Both the position numbers and the translations under genes were made by a program. The notes below the pieces were generated by a model. That model made no database searches and was not told the DNA's origin. It saw only the letters and a list, made by a program, of their open reading frames with translations. A DNA stretch of 64,000 nucleotides from Desulfobacteraceae bacterium (GTDB lineage Bacteria; Desulfobacterota; Desulfobacteria; Desulfobacterales; JAABRJ01): the NCBI GenBank assembly GCA_022340425.1, contig JAJDNY010000014.1, positions 1-64,000 of the forward strand. The letters are read 5' to 3'. Shown here piece after piece: positions 312-10,748 of this stretch. The number at the start of each line of letters is the position of its first letter. Positions within the stretch are counted from its first letter, which is position 1.

Positions 312-2759
312 ATGGAAGAAATCCTCGATATCAGCCGCCTCGATTCGCGGCGCGAGCAGTTCAAACGGCGCTTGCTGGCGATCGTGGTGCCCATCGCCTG
401 CGTAGCGCTGATGATCGGGTCAATCCTCGGGATCGCGCTTTACAGCTATGCCAACAACCGCAGGGACGCCCTGGCGCTTTCAGAGGATCTCCTGCAATCC
501 TTGGACAGCCGGATCGCGACCGAAGTCCGGTCATTCCTCTCCCCGGCCGCCGAGATGGTCACCATCATCAGCAGCACAATCCAAGCCTCGCCACATTCGG
601 AAAATCAGCGGCTGCTGGCCGAAAGCCTGGCCATCCAGATGCTGAAGAACATACCCCAGCTCGCGATTTTCAGCTTCGCCGACACCCAGGGCAACTACCT
701 GATGTTGAAGAAAATGCCCGATCAATCGATTCACACCAAGACGATTGCAAGAGGGGAGGGCGGCATCAAGGTCGCCTGGATTCGACGGGACCCGGATGGT
801 CGTGAAATCGGCAGGGAATACCCCTCCGATGATACCTATGACCCTCGCACCCGCCCCTGGTTCATCGGCGCCGCCAATACGGCGGGGGTCTATTGGACCG
901 ACGTGTATATTTTCTTTACCGATAAAAAACCGGGTATTACCGCTTCGAAAGCTTTCCGCGACGGCGAAGGCGAGTTGGTCGGTGTCGTTGGGGTGGACAT
1001 CGAGTTGGAAAATTTGAGCGCATTTTTGAGCGATCTGCAGATCGGCCGCAACGGCCGCGCCATGATCATCGACGACAGCGGCGGTCTGGTGGCCTTCCCG
1101 GAAGTCAGTCGGATGATGAAACAAAAGGATGGAGAACTTGTCGCCGCACAGATGAACGAGCTGGGCGACCCGGTCCTCGACCGGGCTTTCAACCGCTTCC
1201 TGATCGAGAAAGAGGGGCGTCGTGAACTGATCGTTGATGGAAAGAACTATATCAACACGGTTTCGTCTCTTCAGTCCGCCATCGGCAAGAAATGGTCGGT
1301 TCTGATTACCGTACCGGCCGACGACTTTGTCGGCTTCGTATCCCGCAACAATCGCAAAGCGTTGCTCATGTCCATGGGGATCCTGGTCCTGGCGTCAGCT
1401 TTGGCCGGGCTGTTGATCTGGCAGGGGCTGCGGGCCGACCGCAACGCCCGCTTGCTGCTCGCACGGCGAAAAGAAATGGAAGTCCAGAGCCGGGCGTTTT
1501 CCGATCTGGCCGCCAAACCGGCCATCTTCGACCCGGCCGATGCAGCCGCGCTTGAGGATTTGACCCGCATTACAGCCGAAGCAACAGGCGTTCGCCGGGT
1601 CAGCGTCTGGCAGTGGCTGTCCGGCGGGCGGCAGCTTGTCTGCAACGACTGCTATGACCGCGAAAGCGGCGGTCACACGCGCGGAACCGTTCTGCTGCAG
1701 GAAGACTTGCCCCAACTGTTCGAGGCCCTGCTCACGGAAGAGACCTTGCCCGTCCAGGATGCGGCCCGAGATCCGCGGACGGCCGAACTTCACCGCATTT
1801 ACCTCAATCCCTTCGGTTGCATCCGTCTTTTGGCCATCCCCATTGTCGACCAGGAGAAATTCCGTGGCGCGTTGTGGTTCGAACATAAGGGGTCGGCTCA
1901 TGGATGGCGGTCGGAAGAAGTATCCTTCGCCCAGGCCGTCGCCGGTCTTCTGGCACTCAGGCTGAGTGCGGCTCAGAGTCAGACCGCGTGTGCACCTGCG
2001 GTCGGTACCGCGGGCCCGTTTCAAACAGTGGGGCCGGACGAGGCCTTTCAAGCGGCTGCAAGTCACAGCAAGCAATTGGCCATCGACGGCGGAAAACCGG
2101 TGGAGCAGGCCGAACCCGCCATGCGCCTGGCTACCATCGTGGACTTGCGCATGGAGGCCTTTCGCAGGGAAATGGCGCAGCGCGGTTCGGCTCCTGAGGC
2201 GATCGGCGCGGATGTATTGGAAGACGTCACCGTTCTGGTTCTGCAATTCACCGATCCGATCGCTCTGACCGAACGGATCGGGGCCGAGAAGGCGACGACT
2301 GCGGTGGATCGCCTGATCGAGCATTTGGAAGAGATCACCTCGGCCAGCGGTGTCGGGTACATGAAATTCATGAGCGATCAATTGGTCTGCGCCGCCGGCC
2401 TCCGCAAAGACGACGCTCGCGACCACCCGCGGGTGATTGCCGAACTTGCCCTGGACATTCAGAACACCTGTCTCGGCATCTTCGAAAATTCCAGTTCGAT
2501 CCTCGATTTTCGGATCGGTATCGACACCGGTGTGGTTATCGGCAGCGCCGTGGGACGCGAGCACCAGACATACAACCTGTGGGGAGAGGCCGTCAGAACT
2601 GCCGGCATCATGGCCGAATCCGGGTCGATCGGTGAAATTCACGTCAGCGAAAGCACCTACCGGCGGCTGCAAACCGGATACCTCTTCAAAGTGCGCGGCC
2701 ACTATTTTCTGCCGAATGTCGGTGAACTGACCACCTACATTCTGACGGGGCACCTATGA
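312..2759 (+). CDS. membrane sensor: Cache, GAF and degenerate class III cyclase domain
   Basis: The 815-residue protein has a membrane helix at about 21-44, an extracytoplasmic double-Cache sensor (the DPRTRPW motif near 177 is typical), a second helix at about 349-372, a cytoplasmic GAF domain (about 400-550) and a C-terminal adenylate/guanylate cyclase fold (about 635-800). The cyclase fold is clear (RIGIDTG, YNLWGE), but key residues are changed. The first metal aspartate position reads VLVLQFTD with Gln, and the Asn and Arg of the transition-state motif are Arg and Ile (VRTAGIM). The second metal Asp survives in MSDQL. I infer a ligand-sensing regulator that probably no longer makes cAMP. 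The stop overlaps the permease start by 4 nt, so it is the first gene of the Mla-like operon. The ATG at 312 lacks a strong ribosome site. Confidence 0.85.
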   Translation: MEEILDISRLDSRREQFKRRLLAIVVPIACVALMIGSILGIALYSYANNRRDALALSEDLLQSLDSRIATEVRSFLSPAAEMVTIISSTIQASPHSENQRLLAESLAIQMLKNIPQLAIFSFADTQGNYLMLKKMPDQSIHTKTIARGEGGIKVAWIRRDPDGREIGREYPSDDTYDPRTRPWFIGAANTAGVYWTDVYIFFTDKKPGITASKAFRDGEGELVGVVGVDIELENLSAFLSDLQIGRNGRAMIIDDSGGLVAFPEVSRMMKQKDGELVAAQMNELGDPVLDRAFNRFLIEKEGRRELIVDGKNYINTVSSLQSAIGKKWSVLITVPADDFVGFVSRNNRKALLMSMGILVLASALAGLLIWQGLRADRNARLLLARRKEMEVQSRAFSDLAAKPAIFDPADAAALEDLTRITAEATGVRRVSVWQWLSGGRQLVCNDCYDRESGGHTRGTVLLQEDLPQLFEALLTEETLPVQDAARDPRTAELHRIYLNPFGCIRLLAIPIVDQEKFRGALWFEHKGSAHGWRSEEVSFAQAVAGLLALRLSAAQSQTACAPAVGTAGPFQTVGPDEAFQAAASHSKQLAIDGGKPVEQAEPAMRLATIVDLRMEAFRREMAQRGSAPEAIGADVLEDVTVLVLQFTDPIALTERIGAEKATTAVDRLIEHLEEITSASGVGYMKFMSDQLVCAAGLRKDDARDHPRVIAELALDIQNTCLGIFENSSSILDFRIGIDTGVVIGSAVGREHQTYNLWGEAVRTAGIMAESGSIGEIHVSESTYRRLQTGYLFKVRGHYFLPNVGELTTYILTGHL

Positions 2760-3598
2760 CAGCCGCAGCCGAAACCCCCATGGTCAACGGCGGCGCCCGG
2801 CGGCCGAACACGCTCCGGAAGGCTCTGGCCGCCATCGGTCGATGGGCCATCTCTTTGCTACGACCGTTCATCGAGTTGAGCAGTCTGGCGACGGCCGTGC
2901 TCTGGCAAAGTTGTCGGCCCCTGAACTGGCGGCGAACCTTGGTGAAAGAATTCTTGCGCCAGTGTTACCTGATCGGTATCGGTTCGCTGTCGTTTATCCT
3001 GTTAAGTGGTCTGCTGATCGGACTGGCGATGGTGGTTCAGTTCCTCTACTGGTTGGGTTTGGCGGGTCAGAGGGATCTTGTCGGCCAGGTCATCGTCCTG
3101 ATCCTGGTTCGCGAAATCGCCCCGCTGATGGTCGCCCTGATTCTTGTCGGGCGCAGCGGCTCGGTCAACATGGTCGAACTCGGGCACGTGCGCGCCACCG
3201 CACAGCTGCGCATGCTCGATGCCCAGGGGATAGACCCTTTTTTGTTTTTCATCTTACCCCGCGCGCTGGCGATGGCCGTCTCCATGTTTTCTCTGAACGT
3301 CGTCTTTATTCTGACGGCCTTAGCGACCGGCTACTTTGCGGGAAACCTCTTGAATCCATCCGACCGGACCCCGATTGAATTCCTGAACATGGTACTGGTG
3401 GAAATGGGCGGCCGGGAGTATGCGATTATCGCCCTTAAGCCGCTGATCACCGGACTGCTGGTCTCCCTGATCACCTGCACCACCGGGCTTTCCGCAGGCG
3501 AGCGGGCCGGGCAGGTGGCCGAGGTGCTGCCGGTCGGTTTTGTGAAATCCGTCCTGGCCGTTTTTCTGGTTTCGGGAGCGCTGACAGTACTTCTGTGA
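2756..3598 (+). CDS. mlaE: MlaE-like ABC permease
   Basis: This 280-residue polytopic inner-membrane protein belongs to the MlaE/TrnE permease family, the membrane part of MCE lipid transporters that move phospholipid between inner and outer membrane. The family core is visible from about residue 110 (LILVGRSGSV, then VELGHVRATAQLRMLDAQG and DPFLFFILPR). It is diverged: the usual EQIDAL helix that contacts the ATPase reads AQLRML, and the late GGAxGVG-like turn reads SAGERAGQ. The start overlaps the sensor stop by 4 nt (ATGA) and the ATPase-like gene follows after 14 nt. Drift at the ATPase contact helix fits the degenerate ATPase next door. Confidence 0.88.
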   Translation: MTAAAETPMVNGGARRPNTLRKALAAIGRWAISLLRPFIELSSLATAVLWQSCRPLNWRRTLVKEFLRQCYLIGIGSLSFILLSGLLIGLAMVVQFLYWLGLAGQRDLVGQVIVLILVREIAPLMVALILVGRSGSVNMVELGHVRATAQLRMLDAQGIDPFLFFILPRALAMAVSMFSLNVVFILTALATGYFAGNLLNPSDRTPIEFLNMVLVEMGGREYAIIALKPLITGLLVSLITCTTGLSAGERAGQVAEVLPVGFVKSVLAVFLVSGALTVLL

Positions 3599-3612
3599 GA
3601 AAGTAGGGATCG

Positions 3613-4323
3613 ATGGAAAGAATCGATTACCGCCGCGCGGTGTTGAATGTCACGCGCGTCACGCTTTTCACCGAGGGGGAGAGCGGTGAATACACCAATG
3701 CGCATTTCAGTCTTTACAGCGGCCAACTCGCCTTAGTCCACCTCCAGAATATGCGCCAGAGCGCTTCCCTGGCCGATGCGTTCTCGGGCCTCCTGCGCCC
3801 CGCCAAGGGGAGCGTTCTTTTTTTAGGTCGTGATTGGCAGCATGCCTCGGCCGATACGGCCAATGCGATGAGGGGGAAAATCGGCCGGGTTTTCTCCTCG
3901 AGCAACTGGTTGGATGGTCTCAGCCTGGCCGACAACATTCTGCTGTCCCAACGCCACCACACGCGAAGGCCAAAGGATGAGCTGCTTCAGGAAGCCGCCC
4001 ATTTGGCCAAAGAGTTCAACCTCCCGGGGCTTCCCACCGGGTACCCGAATGAATACACACCTCATGACCGCCGGCGGGCTGCCTGCGTCCGTGCCTTCCT
4101 GGGCAGATCGTCGCTGCTGCTTCTGGAAGAACCGACCCTCGGTGTTTACCCACGGATCATGGCTTCCCTGGTCAACGCCGTGCGCCGGGTCCGCAACAGG
4201 GGAGGGGCCGTCTTTTGGATGACGCTCTCGGAGGAAATCTGGCGCGACGATTCGATACCGGCCGACCGCCTTTTCCGCCTTTCCGGCCGTGAACTGCTGG
4301 AGGTCAGCGAAAAGCATGAGTGA
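3613..4323 (+). CDS. degenerate ABC ATPase-like subunit (pseudo-MlaF)
   Basis: The protein is 236 residues, the length and position of an MlaF ATPase, and the ABC fold can be followed end to end. Its nucleotide-binding motifs are gone. The P-loop region before SGLLRPAKGSVLFLG reads LQNMRQSAS instead of GxxGxGKST. The Q-loop Gln is Ser (VFSSSNW). The LSGGQ signature is replaced by TPHDR ahead of RAFLGRSSLLLLEEPT. Walker B keeps the catalytic Glu but has Glu for Asp. The D-loop and switch His (VFWMTLSEE) are absent. I infer that it cannot bind or hydrolyse ATP in the normal way and acts as a structural or regulatory subunit, unless another ATPase substitutes. Its 3' end overlaps the MCE gene by 8 nt. 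Confidence 0.8.
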   Translation: MERIDYRRAVLNVTRVTLFTEGESGEYTNAHFSLYSGQLALVHLQNMRQSASLADAFSGLLRPAKGSVLFLGRDWQHASADTANAMRGKIGRVFSSSNWLDGLSLADNILLSQRHHTRRPKDELLQEAAHLAKEFNLPGLPTGYPNEYTPHDRRRAACVRAFLGRSSLLLLEEPTLGVYPRIMASLVNAVRRVRNRGGAVFWMTLSEEIWRDDSIPADRLFRLSGRELLEVSEKHE

Positions 4324-5308
4324 CCGCAGACCATTTCGTTACACCAATGAAGCCGTTGGGGCGCTGGTTCTTTTGGCCTTGCTGATTTTCGCTGCCGCCG
4401 TAATGCAAACCGGGCGGCTGCGCAATTGGTTCGAGCCCGCAGCGCAGCTCAAGGTGATTCTGCCGGACAAGGGGTTGTTCGGGCTTTCCAGGGGTGCCAA
4501 AGTCGAAATACTCGGCACCCAGGCCGGCACCGTCAAACAGATCGTTGTTGTCCCGGGCCAGGAGATCCATGCAGTGGTCGAACTCAAAGAGAAGATGACC
4601 GGTTTCGTGCGGCGTGATTCCGGAGCCATCATCCGAAAAGAATTCGGCGTCGCCGGGGCCTCCTTGCTTGAAATCACCCGCGGCCAGGGAGAACCCCTCG
4701 ATTGGGATTACGCCGTCATCAATGCCGTCGCCGAACGCGCGCCCACCGAATCGATGGGTGAGCTGCTGTCGGAGGTGCGCGCCAAGGTGCTGCCAACCAT
4801 TGACGAGGCCCAGCGCCTGCTGGTCAGTCTGAACACCATCACCGGTATAATCGCCGCCGGAGAGGGGGCCATCGGCCGGCTTTTGAAAGAGGATCGCCTG
4901 GCCAGGGAAGTGGAGGCCCTTTTGTCCCAGGTGAACACGAATCTCGACAAATTGCCGCAGATATTGGCATCGTTGCAGACGACGGTCGGAAATCTTGCCA
5001 CCCTGTCAACCGAAATTGCCGAGCAATCCGGCGAGATTCCAGAGATTACCCGTGATGCCGCGAACGTGTTGAAATCGCTGGAAATGGTGATGCAGGATCT
5101 CAGCCGCACCACGCCGCAGCTGCCGAAAATGATCGAAAGTGTCAGCGCCGCCACCATCGATGCGCCCGTTCTGCTGGGCCAAACCCAACTGGTGCTTTAT
5201 GAACTCGAACTCCTTCTGCAGCAATTGCGCTCCAGTTGGCTGTTGGGCGGTGGGAGGCGCGCAACGCCCCGCAGTGGGCCCATACCCGCGCGTGAGGTGA
5301 CACCATGA
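4316..5308 (+). CDS. mlaD: MCE-domain (MlaD-like) periplasmic lipid-binding subunit
   Basis: The 330-residue protein has an N-terminal membrane anchor (about 12-34), one MCE domain (about 43-120, with GLSRGAKVEILG and GTVKQI typical of the fold) and a long helical C-terminal region predicted to form the hydrophobic channel. MCE proteins form hexameric rings that carry lipid across the periplasm. I chose the ATG at 4316, which overlaps the upstream gene by 8 nt, over the in-frame start at 4289 because MCE proteins begin just before the anchor. The stop overlaps the lipoprotein start by 4 nt. It is longer than E. coli MlaD (about 180 residues), closer to the Mce/LetB-like helical-tail forms. 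Confidence 0.9.
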   Translation: MSDRRPFRYTNEAVGALVLLALLIFAAAVMQTGRLRNWFEPAAQLKVILPDKGLFGLSRGAKVEILGTQAGTVKQIVVVPGQEIHAVVELKEKMTGFVRRDSGAIIRKEFGVAGASLLEITRGQGEPLDWDYAVINAVAERAPTESMGELLSEVRAKVLPTIDEAQRLLVSLNTITGIIAAGEGAIGRLLKEDRLAREVEALLSQVNTNLDKLPQILASLQTTVGNLATLSTEIAEQSGEIPEITRDAANVLKSLEMVMQDLSRTTPQLPKMIESVSAATIDAPVLLGQTQLVLYELELLLQQLRSSWLLGGGRRATPRSGPIPAREVTP

Positions 5309-6252
5309 CCGGTGCAATCCGGCATCGCAAAATCGGGTGGCTGCTCGGCGTGTTTACCCTGGTTTGCCTGTGCTTTTGGGCCGGCTGCGGGGGATCGCGA
5401 CAGGTCAGACCGGAGATTGTGGAAGGCGATCGAGAGTTTGACCAGTCGAGTCGAATGGCCCGTTTCGCCTTCGATAACGGGCAAATTCCGCAGGCAATCG
5501 CGGGGTATCAAAGGGCCCTTGGGCGGGCTTACCTGGCAGATGATCTGAAGGCGATCGCGGATACCCTCTATAACCTGGCGGTTTGTCATTTGCGGCAAGG
5601 AAATTACGCGGAGTCGATGGTGCATGCGGAAAAGGCGCAATTCGAATGGACGGCCGCCGGCCATTCCGTTCCGGCGGACCTGCTATTGGTGCAGGCCGTG
5701 GCCCTCTACCACCTTGGATTCCCCGACCGGTCGCGGCAAATCAGTGCCGATATTCTATCGATTCGGCCAGCGGCCTCACCCGAGACGCTCTCCCGGACCC
5801 ATTTCTTAAGGGGAATTCTAGCGGCCGACCAGGGTGATTCGGATCTGCTGCGGCTGGCGATAACCGCCCTGGGGGAACCGTCCTTGCCCGCTCTGCAGGC
5901 GGATCGTTTGGAATTGATCGGCCGCCTGGCCCTGCTCGACGGAAGATGGGACGATGCCGCGGCGGCGTTTGACCAGACCGCCCGCTTGCGGGCTGCCAAC
6001 CGCAATTACCGCCTGATGGCGACGGCCCTGGCAAACGCGGGGCATGCCTGTGAACGTGCCAAACGGTTGGAGGACGCCGCCTATCGCTACCTCAGGGCCG
6101 CGCGCAGTGCCGCCCTGAGCGGCGACACGACGCGGGCCGACGTCTGGATCCAGGAGAGCATGCGCCTGGCCGAACAGTCCGGTGCGCTATCCCTTCTCCA
6201 AGCGGCGCGCCATCTAAAGCCCTTGGCCGTGGACGAGTCGCAACCGCAGTGA
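5305..6252 (+). CDS. TPR-repeat lipoprotein
   Basis: The 315-residue protein has a lipoprotein signal with lipobox WAGC (acylated Cys28), then helical repeats resembling TPRs from about residue 45 to the end (alternating A/L/Y patterns such as YNLAVCHLRQGNYAESM). It should be anchored in a membrane leaflet facing the periplasm. It overlaps the MCE gene by 4 nt, so it is very likely part of the transporter, perhaps the ABC-type auxiliary or outer-membrane-side partner that MlaA or VacJ provides elsewhere. That role is inferred from position only. Confidence 0.75.
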   Translation: MTGAIRHRKIGWLLGVFTLVCLCFWAGCGGSRQVRPEIVEGDREFDQSSRMARFAFDNGQIPQAIAGYQRALGRAYLADDLKAIADTLYNLAVCHLRQGNYAESMVHAEKAQFEWTAAGHSVPADLLLVQAVALYHLGFPDRSRQISADILSIRPAASPETLSRTHFLRGILAADQGDSDLLRLAITALGEPSLPALQADRLELIGRLALLDGRWDDAAAAFDQTARLRAANRNYRLMATALANAGHACERAKRLEDAAYRYLRAARSAALSGDTTRADVWIQESMRLAEQSGALSLLQAARHLKPLAVDESQPQ

Positions 6253-6328
6253 TTCGATGGGTTCCGCTACGGCGGTGACAAAAAGAACGGCGGCGAGCTT
6301 GGCCGGGAATGTAAGAGGGGAGGCGCCC

Positions 6329-7618
6329 ATGGCCGAAAACGACAAAAACTTTCAGAAAACAGTAGACGAACACGTCAAGCGGCTCTTCGAGCGGTACAAG
6401 AGCAATTCCAAGGTCTTCACCGCGACCCACGTCGGTCACATATCCCTGTCGATCATTTTCGTTTTTTCGATCCTCTTCCCCTTTCTTTACCTGCAGATCG
6501 ATGCGCGTAAGACTCAATCCGAATTGGAACGGCTGTCCCAAGACATCACACAGCAGGATGCGCGGGCCGCTACCTACCACCAGGCCTTGACGGGTCTAAA
6601 AAAAATTTTTGAGGCGGTGGAAAACGCGCCCAAACCTTTGGAGGGTTACATTCAGGCCCTCGAAAGAGAGGCTGCCGGGGGTCCGCTGGCGCCCCTTCCG
6701 GAAGGCCTCGGCCCCGCGGCGGAGTCCTGTGGTTCCCCCGTCGACATGGACCCGTGGATGGTGTGCCGCATCCGGCAATACATGGCGGCGCGTGCCGCCC
6801 AATACCAGGAGATCCTGGCCGATGAGATTGCCGCCCCCCTCGAGAGACTCAACATCAAAGAGTTCGATCAATGGCAGGCGGACCTTCAAAACGGGATTAA
6901 AAAGAATACCGAACAGATCCGAAGCGAGATGGCGAAAAACCCTGGTTTTTGGCGCAATTTCAGTCAGAAATCCCCGATTTACCAGAACATGGTCGCAGGG
7001 GTTCAGCGCTTTTGGGTGGACCATCAGTTCGAGGAGATCGGGCGCCGGATGGAGCAGGCCGCTGAGGCGGGCCGGGTCAAGTTCGAGCAACTGAATGAGA
7101 AGAAAGCGCAGATCCAAAAAGGCAAAGAGGATCTCAACAACGCCCTGAAGAACATCAAGACGCGGTTCGGCAAAATCGGGTTGGAGATCGACGAGGCGAT
7201 CCTGCTGGCACCGGTGGCGTTTGCCGTCCTTTTCCTGATCGCCGCCTTGAACCTTTGTCAAAACATGCAGCTGCGGCAATCCTTCCACCGGCTGGTCCAG
7301 GCCAATGACCCGCAGCAGGTGGCCATCAACGACGGCGAGATCGCTTTGGTCATGCCACTCTGGGTTGACCCGCTGGACCCGCCCGTCAAACGCCGGCTCA
7401 AGCTTGGGGTGCTGATGACACCCGCGATCGCCTCCCTCTTGGCCTTGGTGGTCATTTTCTACTGCTGGACGATTCCCGATGCGTTTCCGGCTTTGAACGG
7501 AATGGGCTACGTAAAATACGTTCTTTACTACATGCTGAGCGTCGGCTTTTTCTTTCTCGGTTTTCAACGCATTCGGGGCGCCGTCAGGCGCTATAACGCA
7601 TCTCCAGCCGAAGAGTAA
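6329..7618 (+). CDS. four-TM protein with long extracytoplasmic helical domain, unrecognised
   Basis: The 429-residue protein has a membrane helix at about 36-55, a charged largely helical region of about 230 residues, then three helices (about 291-313, 358-382, 394-414). I prefer the ATG at 6329, which follows an AGGGGAGG ribosome site, over an upstream in-frame start at 6257. Two Cys occur in the helical domain (SCGSPV and MVCRIRQ). No family is recognised. It is the last gene of the run starting at 312, with 76 nt to the lipoprotein gene, and is probably in the same transcript. A scaffold or regulatory role in the MCE complex is possible. Confidence 0.7.
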   Translation: MAENDKNFQKTVDEHVKRLFERYKSNSKVFTATHVGHISLSIIFVFSILFPFLYLQIDARKTQSELERLSQDITQQDARAATYHQALTGLKKIFEAVENAPKPLEGYIQALEREAAGGPLAPLPEGLGPAAESCGSPVDMDPWMVCRIRQYMAARAAQYQEILADEIAAPLERLNIKEFDQWQADLQNGIKKNTEQIRSEMAKNPGFWRNFSQKSPIYQNMVAGVQRFWVDHQFEEIGRRMEQAAEAGRVKFEQLNEKKAQIQKGKEDLNNALKNIKTRFGKIGLEIDEAILLAPVAFAVLFLIAALNLCQNMQLRQSFHRLVQANDPQQVAINDGEIALVMPLWVDPLDPPVKRRLKLGVLMTPAIASLLALVVIFYCWTIPDAFPALNGMGYVKYVLYYMLSVGFFFLGFQRIRGAVRRYNASPAEE

Positions 7619-9959: not shown

Positions 9960-10748
9960 TCACTTTACAACCCGAAGTCTCATAGTCTGCTGCAACTTCA
10001 ACCACAGGGCCCGCAGAATCGCCAAACTCGCCTCATCCGGGGAGACGCTGGCTTTGCGAAGATAGAAGCGGCAGGCCGTCATCAGGTCGTCGTTTCCGAC
10101 ATACAGCCCGAAGGTTTCCTTGATGTAATCCCCGAGGGCGAGGTGCAGGCCGGGCAGTTCCTTCTCCGTCATATTGGCGATCAGCACCCGGTCCTTGAGG
10201 GGCAGGTGACGGTCCAGATGATCGACCGCCGCGGCCACGGTGGTCGGCAAATCCCGGCGCTCGGCGGCCTGCAGGCGCGGGGTGCGGGAAAAGCCCGACG
10301 GGCTTTCGGTCATCATCAACAGATAGGTGACGGCTTCCAGAACGTCGGCCACACTGCGCTGGAGGCTGCTGTTCTCGCTCTCGGCGCTGCCGGAAACATG
10401 CAGCACGCGGATTTTTTTGGCCGCAATCCAGCCGCTGATTTTCTCGGCAGCCCGGAAACCCGCGATCTGCTTTAAATCGATCTCCAGCCAGGCGTCCGCC
10501 GAGGCGACGATCTTGCGCTGGATTACACGAAAAAAATCCGGCAGCTTTGTGGTGCGAAACAGCAGGGTGCCGTCGGCGGCGAGGGCGTTGCCCTCCACCG
10601 CAGCGGCCCATTGATCGGCTGCCATCGGTCCCTTTTCTGCTTCCCAGCCCGCGGGCTGTCCGGCGCAGGGAAGCTCCAACCGCCCGGCGGCCTCGATCGC
10701 TGCCTGTTCAACACCCACCTGACCGCTGGTAACGATCCTTGCAATCAT
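9960..10748 (-). CDS. SLOG (YpsA-like / putative molybdenum carrier) domain fused to DUF6794-like domain
   Basis: The 262-residue protein has two parts. The N-terminal 145 residues match the Rossmann-like family annotated as putative molybdenum carrier or cYpsA-type SLOG (IVTSGQVGVEQAAIEAAG, then a TLLFRT strand). SLOG domains bind nucleotide-derived ligands. The last 95 residues resemble DUF6794 (TVAAAVDHL, LHLALGDYIKETFGLYVGN, DEASLAILRALW). The first domain has GQVGVEQAA where relatives usually have GQTGADRAA, so the acidic ligand-site residue is altered. No partner gene is obvious. The DUF name is from memory and should be confirmed by a profile search. Confidence 0.65.
   Translation of the reverse strand: MIARIVTSGQVGVEQAAIEAAGRLELPCAGQPAGWEAEKGPMAADQWAAAVEGNALAADGTLLFRTTKLPDFFRVIQRKIVASADAWLEIDLKQIAGFRAAEKISGWIAAKKIRVLHVSGSAESENSSLQRSVADVLEAVTYLLMMTESPSGFSRTPRLQAAERRDLPTTVAAAVDHLDRHLPLKDRVLIANMTEKELPGLHLALGDYIKETFGLYVGNDDLMTACRFYLRKASVSPDEASLAILRALWLKLQQTMRLRVVK

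Follow-up and report, generated by a model that had tools for sequence, protein, structure and literature searches.

A five-gene MCE-type operon with a conserved pseudo-ATPase and a degenerate cyclase sensor as a candidate envelope lipid conduit

The window analyzed here, a 64,000-nucleotide stretch of DNA (positions 1 to 64,000 of contig JAJDNY010000014.1) from a Desulfobacteraceae bacterium, carries near its start a putative lipid-transport operon whose ATP-binding cassette (ABC) protein lacks the motifs for nucleotide use. Six open reading frames (ORFs), all on the + strand, were called between positions 312 and 7618 (Table 1), and the successive junctions are a 4-nt overlap, a 14-nt gap, an 8-nt overlap, a 4-nt overlap and a 4-nt gap. 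An earlier note on this DNA had described six genes in one direction with overlaps of 4-8 nt at most junctions; overlaps occur at three of the five junctions, but the six-gene unit was ruled out because ORF6 was not found beside the operon in the first three relatives examined or in the 80 loci scanned, and hence, the unit comprises five genes. ORF6 itself has no Pfam or NCBIfam match above cut-off. Profile searches against the same two collections identified dCache_1 (1.5e-18), GAF (5.6e-14) and Guanylate_cyc (7.7e-25) domains in the sensor, ABC_tran (3.6e-9) and NCBIfam MlaF (2e-10, well under that model's cut-off) in the third protein, MlaD/MCE (1.1e-5) and TIGR00996 (3e-11) in the MCE protein, and TPR in the fifth protein. 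A MlaE-family permease gene thus adjoins an MCE-domain gene, which places the unit in the MCE/MlaE-type lipid transporter superfamily. We refer to the system as F1 and to its ABC protein as pseudo-MlaF.

Table 1. Coordinates of the F1 operon and its features in the window, with examples of the second pseudo-MlaF family (F2)
Feature	Position	Strand	Description
Sensor	312..2759	+	N-terminal transmembrane (TM) segment, periplasmic dCache ~789-1256, TM, GAF ~1548-1964, degenerate class III cyclase domain ~2217-2747
MlaE-family permease, subfamily F1	2756..3598	+	Pfam MlaE 1.9e-41; 4-nt ATGA overlap with sensor gene
MlaE coupling-helix region ELGHVRATAQLRMLDAQGIDPFLFFILPR	3176..3262	+	coupling motif of canonical MlaE/YrbE altered
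Pseudo-MlaF	3613..4323	+	predicted ABC nucleotide-binding-domain fold without nucleotide motifs (alignment to solved MlaF, AlphaFold 2, Foldseek)
Walker A position of pseudo-MlaF	3742..3765	+	LQNMRQSA in place of GxSGxGKS; modelled short turn into helix (DSSP)
ABC signature position of pseudo-MlaF	4057..4071	+	TPHDR in place of SGGxx
Walker B Asp position of pseudo-MlaF	4126..4128	+	Glu172 instead
MCE protein	4316..5308	+	one TM segment at the N-terminus, a single MCE domain and an extended, needle-like helical C-terminal part
TPR lipoprotein	5305..6252	+	lipobox-like CFWAGC; 4-nt overlap with MCE gene
ORF6	6257..7618	+	predicted four-TM protein, 453 aa; adjoins operon, outside conserved unit
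F2 examples	L016:2225-2884, L021:695-1366, L033:572-1243, L173-L192		MlaE, pseudo-MlaF and MCE trios

Alignment of the window's pseudo-MlaF to solved MlaF demonstrated that Walker A has changed from GPSGTGKT to LQNMRQSA, the signature from SGGM to TPHD, and the Walker B aspartate to Glu172; a residue census of 88 pseudo-MlaF and 24 canonical MlaF sequences additionally placed leucine at the H-loop histidine and serine at the Q-loop glutamine of this protein. The Walker A lysine is present in all 24 canonical sequences and in none of the 88 pseudo-MlaF sequences, and the Walker B position is aspartate in 24/24 of the former and glutamate in 87/88 of the latter. The H-loop histidine is retained in about three of the 88, the Q-loop glutamine in six, and the first and second signature glycines in four and ten, respectively, so that the motif set of an active ABC transporter (Walker A, signature, Walker B aspartate, catalytic glutamate and H-loop) is missing family-wide, apart from a variable and often acidic residue at the catalytic glutamate position. 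Other positions are near-invariant, namely W75, R87, G91, R92, W99, H116, T117, L137-P-G-x-P141, D152 (at the signature position, in 87/88), R155, R160, E172 and W202. Across 389 genomes of the order, members of the family scored at least 271 bits with a pseudo-MlaF profile and no other ABC protein exceeded 75 bits; because of this gap pseudo-MlaF is, by its sequences, a discrete family. Gluconobacter members have no Pfam family match at E <= 0.01, and are therefore likely to be overlooked in annotation.

In addition to this loss of motifs, an ordinary nucleotide-binding domain (NBD) fold is predicted: the AlphaFold 2 model of pseudo-MlaF has a predicted local distance difference test (pLDDT) score of 94.6, and its best Foldseek match in the PDB is E. 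coli MlaF (6xgz; TM-score 0.79, 22% identity). The P-loop position was assigned by DSSP to a short turn running into a helix in this model. The Walker A mutation K47R alone abolishes both the ATPase activity and the function of E. coli MlaF (PMC5016091), and by analogy ordinary pumping is unlikely for a family that has lost all of the motifs. The same points bear on the idea that pseudo-MlaF still accommodates a nucleotide, or some other ligand, by a modified mode of binding and goes through an unconventional cycle. The near-invariant E172, D152, W99, HHT and R87 could form a new site, and some members carry an acidic residue right after E172; however, with Walker A replaced by a modelled turn and helix, with H-loop, Q-loop and signature lost, and with K47R sufficient to inactivate E. 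coli MlaF, we regard this idea as very unlikely.

The permease has changed as well. In canonical MlaE the coupling helix carries E-x-x-D, with the glutamate in 24/30 and the aspartate in 26/30 sequences; F1 permeases have glycine at the former position in 85/87 and arginine or histidine at the latter in 79/87, and thus lack the Mla-type coupling motif. The drift of the ATPase-contact helix that the earlier note had suspected is accordingly real, and the altered helix is a conserved, family-wide change as judged from these alignments. The EExDA motif of YrbE proteins was proposed to be a shared binding site for MceG (PMC9947336). F1 permeases thus look specialized for their own pseudo-ATPase, which is evidence against a borrowed canonical ATPase but no proof, as the same genomes also carry ordinary Mla systems. 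In the MlaE tree, support by the Shimodaira-Hasegawa-like approximate likelihood ratio test was 99 for the F1 clade, 100 for F2 (including one row labelled canonical) and 98 for the remaining canonical rows.

These data bear on a rival explanation, in which a canonical MlaF from another Mla locus would energize the permease in trans and pseudo-MlaF would be an assembly factor, a placeholder or an inhibitor. All F1 genomes checked for MlaE families (the window's own plus five) contain two to three further MlaE copies, a canonical MlaF with Walker A adjoins the other MlaE copies in the window's own genome, and MceG, which is common to Mce1 and Mce4, provides a precedent for an ATPase acting in trans (PMC9947336). 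However, the loss from F1 MlaE of a coupling motif that canonical MlaE retains makes a borrowed ATPase less likely; moreover, wherever pseudo-MlaF occurs it is accompanied by F1 MlaE, and it possesses a conserved coupling-side region of its own (NILLxQLHHTR). A mixed dimer of pseudo-MlaF and canonical MlaF would contain no complete ATP site, because pseudo-MlaF lacks Walker A and signature, and a heterodimer with a working site was rejected by the reasoning that both half-sites of the pseudo-subunit are missing. We consider energization in trans unlikely.

The first search recovered this operon from three further families of the order, with the order sensor, MlaE, pseudo-MlaF, MCE and TPR unchanged and MlaE identity as low as 32% among these first three relatives. 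The pseudo-MlaF profile detected 14 copies, distributed over 13 of the 389 genomes, and a reverse search of 379 genomes with the F1 permease profile returned exactly this set of 13; since F1 MlaE occurs in those genomes only, the search gave no case of such an operon with an intact ATPase. One genome (G115) has two copies of the pseudo-ATPase operon (L044 and L067). A breadth scan with one genome per species then covered 133 relatives and 80 loci, in which the presence of the five genes was scored by profile search over all ORFs: all five, in the same order, were found in 74 loci, and five of the other six are cut by contig ends. The loci span Desulfobacterota, Alpha-, Beta- and Gammaproteobacteria, and Verrucomicrobia/Kiritimatiellales. 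They include metagenome-assembled genomes (MAGs) of Desulfobacterota, of Gammaproteobacteria (Chromatiaceae among them) and of Verrucomicrobiales and Kiritimatiellales, as well as Candidatus Accumulibacter, isolates of the Acetobacteraceae (Gluconobacter, Acetobacter, Komagataeibacter, Asaia, Gluconacetobacter, Elioraea and Plastoroseomonas) and other Rhodospirillales; many of the desulfobacterotal, gammaproteobacterial and verrucomicrobial records are MAGs, in which mis-binning of a single record is possible, and the Acetobacteraceae include isolates. Within the family of Gluconobacter oxydans, 150 genomes were sampled and part of the candidates scored; at least 46 of these genomes, some of them close to 2 Mb, carry pseudo-MlaF. 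Across 395 sampled genomes of the window's phylum, it was found in the window's own genome only. This patchy distribution makes horizontal transfer of the operon likely. The flanking genes differ between taxa, which indicates a self-contained unit, and no clue to the substrate was seen in these varying neighbours. Carriage on plasmids was considered and dropped, as no plasmid relative was found at E < 1e-15.

Such conservation leaves an almost negligible probability that the genes are decaying remnants. Decay would account for the motif losses, and the operon is missing from a genus mate in the sample, whose genome is 84% complete; nevertheless, equal losses recur in 88 homologues across phyla with open reading frames, the operon is retained in the ~2-Mb genomes of the Gluconobacter family, and pairwise dN/dS of pseudo-MlaF is 0.083 in Gluconobacter and 0.130 in Acetobacter. 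On the homologues and the dN/dS values, decay was rejected: the pseudo-ATPase is maintained by purifying selection without its nucleotide motifs. The two outcomes that the earlier note had named as refuting, an intact ATPase in the same operon or frameshifts in relatives, were looked for among the 88 homologues and neither was seen, and the gene set that it expected to be maintained in relatives proved to reach far beyond Desulfobacterota.

The sensor has lost its catalytic residues as well. Alignment to solved adenylate cyclases revealed that, in the window protein, the first metal aspartate is glutamine, the adenine aspartate is asparagine, and the transition-state asparagine and arginine are arginine and isoleucine, with the second metal aspartate retained. 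Among 85 homologues, the first metal aspartate is kept in one, the arginine in four, and asparagine and arginine together in none; the two metal aspartates plus transition-state asparagine and arginine of a class III nucleotide cyclase are thus absent as a set. Both nucleotide-handling components have therefore lost key residues, as had been claimed. The accompanying proposal, that the sensor acts by ligand binding rather than by cAMP, draws its sole support from this loss of catalytic residues in 81-84 of the 85 homologues. Of the 80 scanned loci, all but three on short contigs (L088, L104 and L136) have a sensor homologue before the permease gene, and the 4-nt overlap of the two genes recurs in 60 of the 74 full loci, which suggests translational coupling. 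The most distant of the first three relatives has a response regulator-cyclase in this position. In the type found in genome G029 (L037:8955-14594), such a protein lies beside a small ORF (10027-10359) and a 1412-aa ORF resembling a large hybrid sensor kinase.

The unit could also be mainly a signalling device, in which MlaE, MCE and TPR proteins sample envelope lipid and report via pseudo-MlaF to the pseudocyclase, or the reverse, with little net transport. ABC systems of the BceAB type are known signalling partners, two non-catalytic nucleotide-type domains are retained side by side here, and the recurrent overlap of sensor and permease genes fits such a role. Against it, the conserved unit has no output domain (kinase or DNA binding), and the MCE-MlaE anatomy is that of a lipid conduit; hence, we consider it quite unlikely.

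With respect to the periplasmic components, the AlphaFold 2 model of the MCE protein has one TM helix, an MCE domain with pLDDT mostly above 90 and a long helical tail that is less certain. Its best Foldseek matches are the Mce1 needle subunits 8fed/8fef and MlaD. A trans-envelope hexameric needle reaching the outer membrane is only a candidate structure, as the long helices of the monomer model are of modest confidence. A lipobox-like cysteine was found by a strict pattern in 67 of 83 homologues of the TPR protein. Comparison with PqiC and MpcA (PMC12436622) suggests that this protein may fix the needle to the outer membrane.

Taken together, we give about even chances to the reading that F1 is an envelope lipid-transfer system of the MCE type, encoded by five genes, in which the ABC ATPase has turned into a pseudoenzyme, with a conduit that is gated or scaffolded by it and not driven by ATP at its own NBD. 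In such a system, a MlaE dimer in the inner membrane would lie beneath a homohexameric MCE ring, whose helical needle would extend in the direction of the outer membrane and may be docked there by the TPR lipoprotein. On the cytoplasmic face of MlaE, a pair of pseudo-MlaF subunits would serve as scaffold or gate without hydrolysing ATP. The Cache-GAF-pseudocyclase protein, which would be co-translated, would sense a periplasmic ligand; its pseudocyclase domain may pass the signal to the pseudo-NBD and so open or close the conduit, through which lipid would move down its gradient or be driven by something other than ATP hydrolysis at the system's own NBD. Conservation of the operon, loss of the nucleotide motifs, the predicted NBD fold, purifying selection and the altered coupling helix are read from the sequences themselves; assembly of the complex, its lipid substrate, the direction of transport and gating by the sensor are inferred. 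The unusually powered or gated transporter of the earlier note is thus the best reading and remains inferred. Somewhat below even is our estimate for the broader proposal of a widespread class of MlaE-MCE conduits in which the ABC domain is a regulatory gate, driven by a periplasmic sensor via a pseudocyclase, and flow is controlled by gradient or signal rather than pumped by ATP.

Several observations count against the gated-conduit reading. The one incomplete locus of the scan that is not cut by a contig end, in a Rhodopila MAG (L142:9929-13000), has the sensor, MlaE and pseudo-MlaF genes and no detectable MCE or TPR gene downstream; F1 genomes also carry ordinary Mla systems, by which a canonical ATPase is available in trans; an unusual mode of nucleotide binding may be compatible with the sequences; and confidence in the MCE model is low in the needle part. 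The input also varies: sensors in the clade of the G029 type join a response regulator, in place of Cache-GAF, to the cyclase-like domain, and sensory input seems exchangeable.

Beside MlaE genes other than those of F1, a second pseudo-MlaF family, F2, occurs in trios of MlaE, pseudo-MlaF and MCE genes; it was seen in 53 genomes among 194 from the window's order. Walker A is lost in all 20 members examined, and the Walker B region reads E-R-P in most. No F2 was found in three genomes that carry F1 (G000, G008 and G029). The F2 permeases largely retain the coupling motif (E-x-D/E) and form a MlaE clade separate from F1; the ATPase tree, with its long branches, does not tell one loss of ATP use in F1 and F2 from two.

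F1 bears on the direction and energetics of MCE lipid transport: as a natural branch across phyla in which the permease, MCE tunnel and NBD fold were kept and ATP use was discarded, it offers a direct test of the role of the ATPase. Deletion mutants and lipid assays are within reach, since F1 is present in culturable Gluconobacter, Acetobacter and Komagataeibacter. The branch is also a further case of an ABC NBD maintained as a pseudoenzyme, here paired with a pseudocyclase.

In the open-access literature, with subscription literature and bioRxiv outside the search, no paper describing pseudo-MlaF or the F1 gene set was found, in agreement with the earlier note, which knew of no described MCE system of this composition. 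F2 of Desulfobacterota has the MlaE, pseudo-MlaF and MCE genes in common with F1, but no sensor or TPR gene was detected beside it. E. coli MlaFEDB, which serves outer membrane lipid asymmetry, shares the MlaE permease, MlaF-like NBD fold and MCE protein; F1 differs in having no functional ATPase motifs, a long helical MCE tail and an additional Cache-GAF-pseudocyclase protein and TPR lipoprotein, and neither a MlaB STAS domain nor a MlaC partner was found in its five genes by Pfam/NCBIfam searches. Mycobacterial Mce1/Mce4 likewise have needle MCE proteins, YrbE/MlaE permeases and a functional ATPase outside the operon, MceG, which is an active ATPase (PMC9947336), but use six different MCE proteins and two permeases, as opposed to one MCE protein, one permease and one dead ATPase in the F1 operon. 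The PqiA and LetA systems, described without an ATPase domain and, for Pqi, with the PqiC lipoprotein at the outer membrane end (PMC12436622), share an MCE tunnel with no ATPase at the inner membrane protein. However, LetA and PqiA are not MlaE proteins, as the F1 membrane protein is, and LetAB/PqiABC have multi-MCE tunnels without pseudo-ATPase or sensor. Brucella Mpc (MpcEFDA) and Veillonella MlaEFD have MlaE, MlaF and a long single-MCE needle in common with F1, and Mpc shares a lipoprotein as well. In contrast, the MlaF of Veillonella and MpcF are described as conserved ABC ATPases, these systems have no sensor, and the lipoprotein is PqiC-like rather than a TPR protein.

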